Source of the DNA: Saccharopolyspora rosea
Lineage (GTDB): Bacteria; Actinomycetota; Actinomycetes; Mycobacteriales; Pseudonocardiaceae
Length of the DNA: 64,000 bases
Reading direction: 5' to 3'
Assembly (NCBI RefSeq): GCF_025643595.1
Contig: NZ_CP102826.1
Location: 496,001 to 560,000 of the forward strand
Position 1 is the first letter of the stretch. Each line of letters opens with the position of its first letter. The notes under the pieces are model-generated. The model was not told the origin of the DNA and searched no databases. It was given only the letters and a program-made list of their open reading frames with translations. This document shows positions 32,142 through 52,446 of the stretch, one piece after another. Made by a program: the position numbers and the translations under genes.

Positions 32142-32576
32142 GTGTCCGATATCGCGGAGCGTGAACGCACCCTGGCGAGCCGGCTGCGACTGGCGGTCGT
32201 CCGGCTGAACCGCCGGCTGCGCGTGCAGAGCAGCGACTCCAAGATCACGCTGTCCCAGCTGTCGGCGTTGTCCTGCCTGCACAAGGCGGGCGCGATGACA
32301 CCGGGTGAACTGGCAGCCAAGGAGGGCGTCCAGCCGCCGTCGATGACCAGGGTCATCGCGGCGTTGGAGGACGCCGGGCTGGTCGCCCGGCGGGCGCACC
32401 CCACCGACGGCCGCCAGGCGATCGTGGAGCTGACAGACGCGGGGCACCGGCGCATCGAGGAGGAGGTGTCGGTTCGGGAGCGCTGGCTCGACCAGCAGCT
32501 CGCCGATCTCGACGCGGAGGAACGCACCGTCCTGTGCCGGGCGGCGGAGATCATCGACCGGCTCGCGAGCCGGTAA
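32142..32576 (+). CDS. MarR-family transcriptional regulator (with MFS exporter)
   Basis: A 144-residue winged-helix regulator. The DNA-binding domain reads LSQLSALSCLHKAGAMTPGE, PPSMTRVIAALEDAGLVARR and the wing HPTDGRQAIVELTDAG. It lies upstream of an MFS exporter gene in the same direction with a nine-base gap, the usual arrangement of a drug-sensing repressor and its pump. Its position matches Rv0880 in M. tuberculosis. The GTG start is favoured by its relation to the palindrome just upstream. Confidence 0.92.
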   Translation: MSDIAERERTLASRLRLAVVRLNRRLRVQSSDSKITLSQLSALSCLHKAGAMTPGELAAKEGVQPPSMTRVIAALEDAGLVARRAHPTDGRQAIVELTDAGHRRIEEEVSVRERWLDQQLADLDAEERTVLCRAAEIIDRLASR

Positions 32577-32584
32577 CCGGGCCG

Positions 32585-33910
32585 GTGGTGGACGGTCCCC
32601 GAAGCCGATCGGGAACGGACCCGACCGGGGGCCGCGCACACCCGCCGGAGAAGTCCACTTCGGACGATTCGCGTGGCGGCATGTTCCGCTCGCTGCGCGA
32701 GCGCAACTACCGCTACTACGCCTCCGGGCAGGTCGTCTCCCTGACCGGTACCTGGATGCAGCGCGCTGCGCAGGACTGGTTGGTGCTGGAGCTGTCCGGC
32801 GGCAGTCCCGGCGCGCTCGGCGTCGCCGTCGCGCTGCAGTTCCTGCCCACGCTGCTGCTGACGCTGTGGGCCGGTGTCGTGGCCGACCGGTTCGACAAGC
32901 GGCGGCTGCTGGTCGCCACCCAGACCGCGCTCGGGATCTGCGGGCTCGTGCTCGGCCTGCTCGACGTCACCGGGCTCGTGCGGCTGTGGCAGGTGTACGT
33001 GCTCTGCCTGGTGCTGGGGTGCTTCTCCGCGGTCGACGCGCCGGTGCGGCAGTCGTTCGTCGTCGAGATGGTCGGCCCCGAGCACCTGACCAACGCCGTG
33101 GCGCTGAACTCCATGACGTTCAACCTGGCCCGCATCGTCGGACCGGCGATCTCCGGCGTGCTCATCACCGCGATCGGGACCGGCTGGGTGTTCCTGGCCA
33201 ACGGCGTGAGCTCGGCGGCCGTGGTCGGCGGGCTGCTGCTGATGGATCCGAGCGCGCTGCACCGGAGCAACCCGCCGCCCAAGGAGCGCGGGCAGCTGGG
33301 CGCCGGGCTGCGCTACGTGCGCGGGCGACGGGACCTGATCGTGGTGATGGTGCTGGTGTTCTGCATCGGCACGTTCGGGATGAACTTCGAGAACTCCTTC
33401 GCCGTCATCGCGCGCAACGTCTTCGGCCGCGACGCCGACGGCTACGGGCTGCTGATCACGATGCTCGCCGTCGGCACGCTGACCGGAGCAGCGCTCGCCG
33501 CCCGGCGCAGCGGCCGGAGCAGGCCGCGGATGCGGGTGATGCTGGTGGGCGCGGCGGCGTTCGGCGTGCTGGAGGCCGCGGCGTCGCTGATGCCCAGCTA
33601 CGAGACGTTCGCCGCCGCGCTGATCCCCGTCGGCCTGGCCGTCATGACCTTCACGACCAGCGCGAACGCCACGGTCCAGCTGGCGGTGGAGCCGACCATG
33701 CGCGGCCGCGTCATGGGCCTGTACATGCTGCTGTTCCTGGGCGGCAAGCCGCTCGGCGGGCTGCTGTCGGGCTGGGCCGCGGAGGCGTTCGGCGGGCGGT
33801 CCCCGATCCTGCTCGGCGGTCTGGCGTCGGTGGCCGCCGCCGTGGTCGGCGCGGCCATGCTGGTGCGCCGTCGGCAGCCGGGGGTTGTGCGATCAAGAAG
33901 GTTAGGCTAG
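32585..33910 (+). CDS. MFS transporter (probable drug exporter)
   Basis: A ~441-residue major facilitator protein with about 12 helices. The first helix begins NYRYYASGQVVSLTGTWMQR, followed by the loop motif WAGVVADRFDKRR and LVLGCFSAVDAPVRQSF, typical of the enterobactin-exporter/TetV-like MFS_3 group. Likely exports a small molecule under MarR control. The start is uncertain: GTG 32585 or 32588 gives a 32-residue polar leader; ATG 32681 starts right at the membrane domain. Its last codons overlap an iron-box sequence. Confidence 0.88.
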   Translation: MVDGPRSRSGTDPTGGRAHPPEKSTSDDSRGGMFRSLRERNYRYYASGQVVSLTGTWMQRAAQDWLVLELSGGSPGALGVAVALQFLPTLLLTLWAGVVADRFDKRRLLVATQTALGICGLVLGLLDVTGLVRLWQVYVLCLVLGCFSAVDAPVRQSFVVEMVGPEHLTNAVALNSMTFNLARIVGPAISGVLITAIGTGWVFLANGVSSAAVVGGLLLMDPSALHRSNPPPKERGQLGAGLRYVRGRRDLIVVMVLVFCIGTFGMNFENSFAVIARNVFGRDADGYGLLITMLAVGTLTGAALAARRSGRSRPRMRVMLVGAAAFGVLEAAASLMPSYETFAAALIPVGLAVMTFTTSANATVQLAVEPTMRGRVMGLYMLLFLGGKPLGGLLSGWAAEAFGGRSPILLGGLASVAAAVVGAAMLVRRRQPGVVRSRRLG

Positions 33911-33915
33911 CCTAA
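33897..33915. promoter_or_regulatory. DtxR/IdeR-type iron box, no gene directly downstream
   Basis: GAAGGTTAGGCTAGCCTAA matches the 19-bp DtxR/IdeR consensus at 16 positions, and its core TTAGGCTAGCCTAA is a perfect 14-bp palindrome. It overlaps the MFS stop codon. A weak promoter (TTGTGC at 33885-33890, 17 bases, TAGCCT at 33908-33913) would be blocked by bound repressor. The next structure downstream is a terminator hairpin, not a gene. Confidence 0.7.
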
Positions 33916-33918
33916 ATC

Positions 33919-34000
33919 ACGTCCGCTTCGTGGTGGGAGCGGCAGTCAGTTCGGGAACCGAACCGGGCCCCGGTCGTCGATGACGGCCGGGGCCCGATTC
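33919..34000 (+). ncRNA. Candidate iron-regulated small RNA
   Basis: From the predicted start beyond the iron box to the hairpin at 33965-33995 lies an ~80-base transcript with no ORF. It would contain a small hairpin GTTCGG-GAA-CCGAAC (33949-33963) followed by the strong terminator stem. Iron-repressed small RNAs exist in mycobacteria (MrsI), which is the precedent. No expression evidence. Confidence 0.35.
33965..33995 (+). terminator. Hairpin terminator after MFS gene / candidate sRNA
   Basis: A 9-bp perfect GC stem (33965-33973 with 33987-33995) continues through a G-U pair into an inner CGTC/GACG stem with a 3-base loop, 55 bases past the MFS stop. Confidence 0.75.
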
Positions 34001-34013
34001 GTGCGCGGACGCA

Positions 34014-34056
34014 CTTCGGGGCCCTCTTCGGCGCGGAGTGGAAGAGGGCCCCGAAG
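34014..34056. terminator. Second strong hairpin between MFS and sodA
   Basis: A perfect 15-bp stem (34014-34028 with 34042-34056) and a 13-base loop. It may terminate the convergent sodA transcript. The remaining bases to 34222 show no gene. Confidence 0.65.
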
Positions 34057-34222
34057 GCGGCAGTGGGCTTGTCGGAGCACTCACCGCCGGGCTTTGAAGG
34101 TGCTCGGGCTGGTTCGCGGAGCGGACGCCGCCTCCGCTCCGGGAGTTCGACAGCGGGCCGACGGCGTTCCGGAGGCCGGGGCGCCGGAGATCAGGTGCGG
34201 TGCTCCGCGGCCGAGCGCGGCG

Positions 34223-34852
34223 TCACGCCGTCGGCAGGCGCAGGCCGTTGTAGCCCGCGCGGGCGTCGGCGAAGCGCTTGGCGACCTCGTCCCAGTTGAC
34301 GACGTTCCACAGCTGCTTGACGTAGTCGGCCTTCACGTTCTTGTACTGCAGGTAGTAGGCGTGCTCCCAGATGTCGAACACCAGCAGCGGGGTGGTGGCG
34401 ATCGACAGGTTGGAGTGGTGGTCCCGCAGCTGCTGGGTGATCAGCCGCTGACCCACCGGGTCCCACGCCAGCACGCCCCAGCCGTTGCCCTGGATCGTGG
34501 TCGACACGGCCTCCATCTGCGCGCGCATGGCGTCGAAGGAGCCGAAGTGCTCGTCGATCGCCGCGGCGAGCTCGCCGGTCGGCTTGTCGCCGCCGTTCGG
34601 GCTGAGGATCTTCCACCACACCAGGTGCAGCGAGTGCCCGGCCAGGTTGAACGCCAGGGTCGTCTCCAGCCCGACGATCGAGGAGAAGTCGCCCTTCTCG
34701 CGGGCCTCGGCGATCTTCTCGATCGTGTCGTTCGCGCCCTTGACGTAGGTGGCGTGGTGCTTGCTGTGGTGCAACTCGTTGATCTCGCCCGAGATCGCCG
34801 GTTCCAGCGCCGCGTAGTCGTAGTCCAGTTCCGGCAACACGTACTGCGCCAT
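34223..34852 (-). CDS. sodA: Superoxide dismutase (Fe/Mn)
   Basis: The 209-residue enzyme dismutates superoxide with a single Fe or Mn. The metal ligands are seen in [10 protein letters not shown] (first His), [11 protein letters not shown] (second His) and the signature [13 protein letters not shown] (Asp and His). Length and a cytoplasmic N-terminus ([16 protein letters not shown]) are typical of actinobacterial SodA. ATG 34852 has a GGGAGG ribosome-binding site; the frame continues 18 codons upstream. The metal cannot be assigned securely. Confidence 0.96.
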
Positions 34853-35019: not shown

Positions 35020-35140
35020 CGGGGCAGCATCCACGCGAACCCGGCGAGCGGGAGAAGTCCGGTCGAAATCCGGCGCTGACCCGCAACGGTGGGCCGCGCA
35101 CCCGCGCGGCGAGCCCGATCGCCCGCTCGGCCCGGGACGG
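35020..35140 (+). promoter_or_regulatory. Cobalamin riboswitch
   Basis: The B12 box, AATCCGGCGCTGACCCGCAA plus CGGT, lies at 35067-35090, preceded by the conserved GGGAGAAGTCCGGT and followed by a stem and CGAGCCCGATCGCC. This is a clear adenosylcobalamin-class aptamer in the 384-base leader of the btuF-like gene. Boundaries are approximate. It should switch the importer off when B12 is plentiful. Confidence 0.9.
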
Positions 35141-50725: not shown

Positions 50726-52446
50726 GCGCTTCCATGGACCGCGCCCAGTACGTCGAACTGTTCGGCCCCACCACCGGTGACCGCATCCGGCTGGCCGACA
50801 CCGACCTGCTCGTCGAGATCACCGAGGACCGCAGCCAGGGGCCGGGCGGCTCCGGCGAGGAGGTCGTCTTCGGCGGCGGCAAGGTCGTGCGCGAGTCGAT
50901 GGGCCAGTCGGTGGCCACCCGCGCCGAGGGCACGCCGGACGTGGTCATCACCGGCGCCGTCATCCTCGACCACTGGGGCGTGGTCAAGGCCGACATCGGC
51001 ATCCGGGACGGGCGCATCGTCGGCATCGGCAAGGCGGGCAACCCGGACGTGGCCGCGGACGTCGACCCGAACCTGGTGATCGGGCCGTCGACCGAGATCG
51101 TCGCGGGCAACGGCAAGATCGTCACCGCCGGTGGCATCGACTGCCACGTGCACTTCATCTGCCCGCAGGAGGTCGACACCGCGCTGGCGTCCGGGCTGAC
51201 CACGCTGATCGGCGGCGGTACCGGACCGGCCGAGGGCAGCAAGGCCACCACCGTCACGCCGGGCGCCTGGAACCTCGCCCGCGTCATGCAGAGCATCGAC
51301 CACCTGCCGGTCAACGTGCTGCTGCTCGGCAAGGGCAACACCACGCGCGGCGAGGCGCTGCACGAGCAGATCCGCGCCGGTGCGGGCGGGCTCAAGCTGC
51401 ACGAGGACTGGGGCTGCACCCCGGCGGTCATCGACAGCTCGCTGCGCTGCGCCGAGGAGACCGGTGTGCAGATCGCCATCCACACCGACACGCTCAACGA
51501 GAGCGGGTTCCTGGAATCGACGCTCGCGGCGATCAACGGCCGGTCGATCAACGCCTACCACGCCGAGGGCGCGGGCGGCGGGCACGCGCCGGACATCATC
51601 CGGGTCGCCAGCGAGGCCAACGTGTTGCCCTCGTCGACGAACCCGACCCGGCCGCACACCGTGAACACCATCGACGAGCACCTCGACATGCTCATGGTGT
51701 GCCACCACCTCAACCCGGCGGTGCCCGAGGACCTGGCCTTCGCGGAGAGCCGCATCCGGCCCTCGACCATCGCAGCCGAGGACGTGCTGCACGACATGGG
51801 CGCGATCTCGATGATCAGCTCCGACGCGCAGGCGATGGGCCGCATCGGCGAGGTGATCATCCGGACCTGGCAGACCGCGCACGTGATGAAGCGGCGCCGC
51901 GGTGCGCTGGCCGGTGACGGGGCCGCGGACAACCTGCGCGCCCAGCGCTACGTCGCGAAGTACACCATCAACCCGGCCATCACCCACGGCATCGACCACG
52001 TGGTCGGGTCCGTGGAGGTCGGCAAGATGGCCGACCTGGTGCTGTGGGAGCCGGAGTTCTTCGGCGTCCGCCCGCACATGGTGCTCAAGAACGGCTTCGC
52101 CGCGTGGGCGCAGATGGGCGACGCGAACGCGTCCATCCCCACCCCGCAGCCGTACTACGCGCGGCCGATGTGGGGCGCGCAGGCGCGTGCGGCCGCCGCG
52201 AGCAGCGCCTTCTTCGTGGCCCAGGCCGCGCTGGACGACGGGCTCGCCGACCGGCTCGGACTGGACTCGCGGCTGGAGGCCATCACCAGCACGCGCGGCG
52301 TGACCAAGGAGCACATGCCGCACAACTCGGCGACCCCGGACGTCGAGGTCGACCCGGACAGCTTCGCCGTGCACATCGACGGCGAACTGGTCGAGCCGGA
52401 CCCGGTCCGGGAGGTCCCGATGGCGCAGCGGTACTCGCTGTTCTGA
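50722..52446 (+). CDS. ureC: Urease alpha (catalytic) subunit
   Basis: The 574-residue catalytic subunit holds the dinickel centre. Ligands are in [12 protein letters not shown] (two His), [11 protein letters not shown] (the lysine to be carbamylated and a His), AIHTDTLNE (His), [20 protein letters not shown] (catalytic His flap) and [12 protein letters not shown] (Asp). Everything needed for activity is present. GTG 50722 is coupled to ureB; ATG 50734 is an alternative. Confidence 0.98.

Follow-up and report, generated by a model that had tools for sequence, protein, structure and literature searches.

The locus studied here raises the question of what an iron box controls when it is located at the very end of a gene. 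In the stretch of 64,000 nucleotides of Saccharopolyspora rosea DNA that we analysed (the window), an initial annotation had described a DtxR/IdeR box with a 16/19 match and a perfect 14-bp core at the end of an MFS gene, followed by no ORF, and had proposed a short iron-repressible transcript behind it. The box (GAAGGTTAGGCTAGCCTAA; 33897-33915, +) differs from the DtxR/IdeR consensus TTAGGTTAGSCTAACCTAA at three positions and contains a perfect 14-bp palindromic core, TTAGGCTAGCCTAA, at 33902-33915. The upstream neighbour, an MFS transporter ORF with an uncertain start (32534-33910, +), has a stop codon that overlaps the box. The box is the sole site with three or fewer mismatches in the window and none was found in 100 shuffles, while the runner-up among the non-overlapping sites has seven mismatches to the IdeR consensus. 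Both the 19-bp consensus and the half site TTAGGNNNNCCTAA, which is present at four places in the 6.56-Mb genome, are given in a study of S. erythraea IdeR structures (PMC8464063). Judged by this 19-bp box or half site, the locus bears the mark of a DtxR/IdeR-regulated promoter. IdeR itself is encoded in the genome (full-length match to chain 7b1v, E 5e-126) and, going by this match, could read the box. Downstream, long mechanical ORFs cross the stretch, none of them convincing.

We then asked how far the locus is conserved. A search with a 251-bp region found matches in 39 of 61 genomes, that is in 36 of the 37 genomes of the family, the Pseudonocardiaceae going by the named matches, and, marginally, in three genomes of other families, where the terminator sequence alone was matched. 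An alignment of 31 copies contains 28 invariant columns within the first 36 bases, followed by a terminator that is variable yet covarying. A covariance model, termed R1, was searched for in further genomes: among 298 genomes of the order, strong matches (E <1e-8) were obtained in 53, all from the same family, a number that counts matches and does not give the share of the family genomes in the sample. Matches in other families of this sample (19 genomes) were weak, with E values of 1.2e-4 or worse, and none of the ten that were inspected has a CGTGGTG core preceded by a box-like sequence. Among 296 genomes of the class, R1 gave two matches at 1e-4, both again from the same family. Scored with stricter filters, neither the order sample (298 genomes) nor the class sample (296) contained a convincing homologue outside the family.

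A scan of named records yielded at least 119 matching stretches. Among the 80 matches listed, we find Saccharopolyspora, Amycolatopsis, Pseudonocardia, Lentzea, Prauserella, Actinokineospora, Saccharothrix, Kutzneria, and others, genera that we take to belong to the Pseudonocardiaceae; an entry "Nocardia sp. NRRL S-836" among them is suspected to be misnamed. Some genomes carry several copies of the RNA (G025 and G277 three each, G020 two). Copies of G025 (L036, L042) and G277 (L086, L087) have an extra base between the conserved blocks, which suggests that these genomes belong to Pseudonocardia, and the boxes of G277 are weaker. A division of labour between the copies in G025 and G277 is possible.

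The conservation extends to the control region. Loss of the box from close relatives had been named as the observation that would speak against the initial proposal, and the opposite was found: among 172 distinct copies of the RNA core, 170 are accompanied by a box with no more than five mismatches and 147 by one with no more than three, and its distance from the core is nearly constant (-27 to -33 in 170 of the 172). Random 60-nt stretches of such loci reached the five-mismatch level in 113 of 20000 cases, real sites counted. Inside the box lies a putative -10 element, TAGCCT (33908-33913, +), which mostly reads TAACCT in the relatives; its TA..CT is kept in the column counts of the 172 copies. 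A -35-like TTGTGC (33885-33890, +) is separated from it by a 17-nt spacer, and a T located 12 nt 5' of the box is found in 163 of the 172 copies, where it belongs to a TTG in one of two registers. A plain sigma-70 consensus scan called no promoter at this locus, and likewise no terminator with a U-tract. We base the assignment of promoter and terminator on conservation and covariation.

The predicted product is a small RNA of about 80 nt (33921-34004, +), as defined by alignment A1, its fold (-54.2 kcal/mol, z -5.15), and R1. It would start 7 nt 3' of the -10 element and end near 34000, at or just past the terminator stem. The layout described initially, a small hairpin and then a strong stem, was recovered. 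The near-invariant 5' hairpin (33923-33942, +) consists of the arms CCGCUUC and GGAGCGG around the loop GUGGUG (33930-33935), a putative second pairing site directed at ferritin (see below); five of its seven pairs never vary among 31 sequences. A short variable spacer separates it from a likewise near-invariant segment, B2 (GUCAGUUCGGGAAC; 33945-33958, +), the putative seed against the 5' UTR of aconitase according to alignment, fold, and pairing tests. In the window's copy B2 is able to fold with a CCGAAC ending at 33963, whereas it is open in the consensus fold of the 31 copies. The cost of opening it amounts to 2.8 kcal/mol in the window's RNA and to 1.6 in that of copy L007; for the whole loop segment it is 10-11 kcal/mol. 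The RNA closes with a terminator-like stem of 15 pairs around the loop GAU (33964-33996, +), which lacks a U-tract. This helix has 13 consensus pairs, of which 11 show double changes; 62 double-change cells were counted compared to 18.9 in shuffles, and none of 500 shuffles reached the covariation score of the alignment. Comparison of sequences alone thus gives this gene a promoter and a terminator of its own and a non-coding character. No family of Rfam 15 reached its gathering score in the RNA-gene stretch.

Behind the RNA follows a second GC-rich inverted repeat (34012-34060), whose sequence and position suggest that it is probably the terminator of the convergent neighbour, the superoxide dismutase gene sod (34223-34852, -; from the ORF list). 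This synteny is conserved: sod is located downstream and convergent in 71 of 123 copies of the RNA and, whenever found, in no other arrangement. In the loci of Pseudonocardia records sod was not found.

To identify possible targets, we chose the classical targets of iron-sparing RNAs as candidates and tested them with both conserved segments. Gene starts were selected by rules of our own, and the windows tested cover about -80 to +40 relative to these starts, with 90 nt upstream in family windows and 80 in background windows. The 286 background genes were taken from 400 kb (6%) of the window's own genome, doubtful ORFs included. In a first run, nulls were computed on one window in three, and the sod and MFS nulls on the first 27 windows only; a later run covered all windows with single segments.

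The strongest signal was obtained for aconitase. Its site reads GUUCCCGAACU or CCGAACUGAC and is mostly located 25-42 nt 5' of the GTG start. Duplexes of B2 with the aconitase windows have a mean energy of -18.9 kcal/mol in 27 genomes compared to -12.4 for the null (z -4.5), a value reached by none of 200 shuffled segments; this agrees with an earlier run that used a subset of the windows. The set comprises 27 of 28 family genomes (G022 was left out), with two genomes that had been taken twice counted once. Uninterrupted Watson-Crick runs with B2 of at least 6, 7, and 9 pairs are present in 27, 25, and 18 of these 27 genomes, in 47, 9, and 0 of the 286 background genes, and in 9, 5, and 0 of 59 sod windows. 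MFS control windows gave 12, 7, and 2 of 45, so these controls are not free of runs. For aconitase in genomes that gave no strong match to the RNA, the corresponding counts are 4, 1, and 0 of 26 windows; these are 26 of 29 outgroup windows, several of which have starts that look mis-picked (e.g., L457, L460, L463, L465, L466, L478).

At 70% identity the aconitase UTRs fall into 16 clusters, 14 of which keep seven or more pairs, and none of 5000 shuffled seeds reached that number. Divergent UTRs (L293, L301, L306, L313, L412) keep the same letters of the site at differing distances. Since B2 itself hardly varies, compensatory changes are not available as evidence for pairing. For accessibility-corrected totals across genomes, the RNA of L007 was used throughout; by this measure pairing is weak in L302, L305, L307, L409, L411, and L415, with runs of 6-7 pairs and totals of -7.9 to +3.0. 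The aconitase gene of the window's own genome offers B2 a run of 7 Watson-Crick pairs, or 11 if a G-U is counted. With its own RNA and accessibility taken into account the score is -9.5, equalled by 4 of the 286 background genes; with the RNA of L007 it is -12.9, equalled by none. When the two segments are combined, 26 of the 286 are as good. Complementarity to aconitase thus accompanies the RNA: it was found in the family that carries this RNA and was missing from those related genomes without the RNA that we tested. We regard the joint presence, across the family, of the RNA and its predicted complementary site as the strongest argument for a function. A GCGAGACTC-like sequence, perhaps a promoter or a regulator site, is seen repeatedly some 40-55 nt upstream of aconitase starts (e.g., L291, L300, L302, L307).

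Ferritin is the next best candidate, and we grade the predicted complementarity as strong for aconitase and moderate for ferritin. The loop segment pairs with 16 ferritin windows at a mean of -17.3 kcal/mol compared to a null of -13.5 (z -4.2; 1 of 200 shuffles). The complement is mostly located within codons 2-9 in the 16 of 30 loci that were usable and may therefore partly mirror the protein sequence; in the window's own genome 18 of the 286 background genes fit equally well. Upstream of ferritin, about 45-50 nt before the start, TTAGG followed by CCTGAA or CCTGGAA was observed (L325, L327, L329, L331, L339, L340), an iron-box-like sequence which suggests that IdeR may also control ferritin directly.

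The sequences make sdhC a weak candidate. On partial windows with both segments it gave a z of -2.4, which was gone on all windows: over the full set of 27, its fit was reached by 29 (loop) and 28 (B2) of 200 shuffles. Loop runs of ten or more pairs including G-U occur in 20 of 27 sdhC windows, in 11 of 16 for ferritin, and in 58 of the 286 background genes, but this measure is unspecific, since aconitase scores 13 of 22 as well. Outgroup sdhC windows have such loop runs in 2 of 12 cases. A complement to B2 is found before sdhC mainly in Saccharopolyspora and is absent in the window's own genome. A stretch like GTCCAYCARCGAYGTTGGAGGC precedes sdhC in many family genomes (L350-L377) and in two outgroup genomes (L480, L489) and may be a separate leader element. 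We rejected leuC, which encodes an iron-sulphur enzyme: B2 runs of 7-8 pairs occur in 6 of 11 windows but are scattered, and the mean energies equal those of shuffles, 84 (loop) and 79 (B2) of 200 reaching its fit. For MFS genes these numbers are 86 and 54 of 200. A search of 13 genomes for exact 11-mer complements of either segment revealed no recurrent iron gene at the loci inspected, which comprise 30 B2 loci, own copies left out, and two of 18 further stretches (L288, L289). Three close-set 11-mer matches in G010 are located in an apparently repetitive coding stretch.

Taken together, these results make it likely, in our judgement, that the locus is the gene of an IdeR-repressed, trans-acting, iron-sparing sRNA that acts on aconitase. 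Some other readings can be weighed against this one. That a chance box merely precedes the terminator of the MFS gene would agree with the overlap between the box and the end of the MFS ORF, whose mRNA might be terminated by the stem, but conservation throughout the family and the copies that are located away from the MFS gene refute this, and we give it practically no weight. Scarcely more credible is a short peptide encoded by the conserved stretch. The stretch does contain an open frame with GTG codons, yet it enters the variable terminator, and indels of 1-2 bases between the conserved blocks (L035, L036, L042, L086, L087, L089, L092) mean that no frame spans both, so that a peptide spanning them is refuted. 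The initial annotation had also pointed to superoxide dismutase, an iron-linked enzyme, as the next gene on the opposite strand. This gene order stands, and control of the sod mRNA by convergent transcription in cis or by pairing would draw on it as well as on a B2 pairing slightly above the nulls (11 of 200 shuffles reach it; 0.025 of shuffles for the combined segment on part of the windows). Nevertheless, the loop is unremarkable (42 of 200), the whole core pairs with sod starts no better than with random windows (-33.5 compared to -35.2; 60 loci), and among the 286 background genes of the window's own genome, as many as 268 with the loop, 52 with B2, and 212 with both are as good. Sod is therefore not supported as a pairing target. 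Moreover, the covarying stem would terminate the RNA short of sod, and the Pseudonocardia-record loci, as mentioned above, have no recognisable sod; we regard control of sod as improbable.

A more serious alternative is that the RNA is iron-repressed as proposed but has other mRNAs as its main targets or works through a protein that it binds, the aconitase match being a by-product. The stem of the hairpin hardly varies and shows no compensatory changes, an invariance that exceeds the needs of pairing alone and would fit protein binding, and ferritin fits the loop segment. Against this, the complementarity to aconitase survives in diverged UTRs, is absent in outgroup windows, and beats all shuffled seeds. 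We consider this alternative unlikely, though less so than the readings discussed before, and retain an iron-sparing RNA directed at aconitase. As regards the initial proposal, a short transcript repressible by iron is the best reading of the conserved succession of box, promoter elements, RNA, and terminator.

According to this iron-sparing model, metal-loaded IdeR would sit on the box under ample iron, covering the -10 element and part of the spacer, and keep the promoter shut. When iron is low, IdeR would depart and the RNA would be made, ending at the GC-rich stem. B2 would then pair with its complement upstream of the aconitase start and aconitase production would fall, while the region of the hairpin loop may bind the first codons of ferritin, which would probably decrease, too. 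In sum, the cell would spare iron. That the RNA is transcribed, that IdeR binds the box, that the RNA pairs with its targets in the cell, and how and in which direction it regulates them is what we infer from these comparisons; repression of aconitase as the sign of the effect would follow by analogy. Since the aconitase site is located upstream of the Shine-Dalgarno sequence, pairing there could also act through a standby site, by recruitment of an RNase, or as activation. If the model is true, this position would point away from direct masking of the Shine-Dalgarno sequence. To our knowledge, no Hfq has been recognised in these bacteria.

Two further matches to RNA families were observed elsewhere in the window. 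At 35045-35129 (+), a sub-threshold match to the AdoCbl (cobalamin) riboswitch (30.7 bits, gathering 50; E 0.0007) is followed on its 3' side by genes for an ABC importer-like substrate-binding protein, a permease, and an ATPase, probably a B12-controlled uptake operon. At 50892-51181 (-), 5_ureB_sRNA (RF02514) was matched at the Rfam gathering level (52.6 bits). This family is known from Helicobacter pylori, where it is antisense to ureB, and the match may merely reflect conserved urease coding sequence.

Iron-sparing RNAs arose separately in several bacterial groups. For the Actinobacteria, the mycobacterial MrsI is the only iron-sparing sRNA known to us. The RNA described here would be a second one, without detectable relatives and kept across a family that yields many clinical antibiotics (Saccharopolyspora, Amycolatopsis, Saccharothrix, Kutzneria), and it would provide a defined RNA, seed, and target where trans-acting sRNAs are little known. 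If the model is true, iron supply is linked to the TCA cycle and hence to the supply of antibiotic precursors in industrial strains. In the literature on sRNAs and iron in Pseudonocardiaceae, and with a 16-base piece of the core, we found no description of this RNA; the S. erythraea supplementary lists lay beyond this search. Lists of 190 and 265 intergenic RNAs exist for S. erythraea (PMC3610266, PMC3827479), and the RNA or its box may already be contained, unremarked, in these or in the list of IdeR sites (PMC8464063).

How does this RNA compare to known systems?

RyhB of enterobacteria is repressed by Fur and depends on Hfq, and its classical targets are aconitase and succinate dehydrogenase. 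Both RNAs would be under the control of an iron regulator, but phylum and repressor differ and, as stated above, the stretch matches no Rfam family. One may tentatively see in it an actinobacterial counterpart of RyhB that evolved independently and has two separate seeds within about 40 nt. One of them, a rigid hairpin loop, would serve ferritin and perhaps the start codon of sdhC, and the other, an open stretch, would serve aconitase; we would put the chances of this fuller picture at clearly below even. As an iron-sparing RNA, it would be a separate answer of soil antibiotic producers to the problem for which E. coli has RyhB. FsrA of Bacillus and IsrR of Staphylococcus are Fur-repressed iron-sparing sRNAs of Gram-positive bacteria that target iron enzymes of the TCA cycle, using C-rich seeds against Shine-Dalgarno sequences. 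In contrast, the loop of the present RNA is rich in G and U, and its aconitase segment has its predicted site upstream of the Shine-Dalgarno sequence. IsrR is described in PMC9410917. MrsI (ncRv11846), to which the initial annotation had compared the locus, is depicted in two reports as a highly structured RNA of about 100 nt with an IdeR site near its start, a predicted rho-independent terminator, a 6-8-nt seed, and an apical loop, and with targets among iron proteins including bacterioferritin (PMC8628891, PMC11188477). IdeR site, structure, terminator, seed and loop, and iron-protein targets are thus alike, all of them predicted in our case, and the comparison is right as an analogy of layout. 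However, MrsI adjoins blaI and Rv1847 and not MFS and sod genes, and its targets are bfrA, hypF, and fprA, whereas aconitase is predicted here. As to descent, R1 has no convincing match outside the family, and the comparison with MrsI is one of descriptions and not of aligned sequences. By its layout and predicted function, the present RNA seems to join RyhB, FsrA, and MrsI as one of their kind; by descent, we assign it to none of those families.
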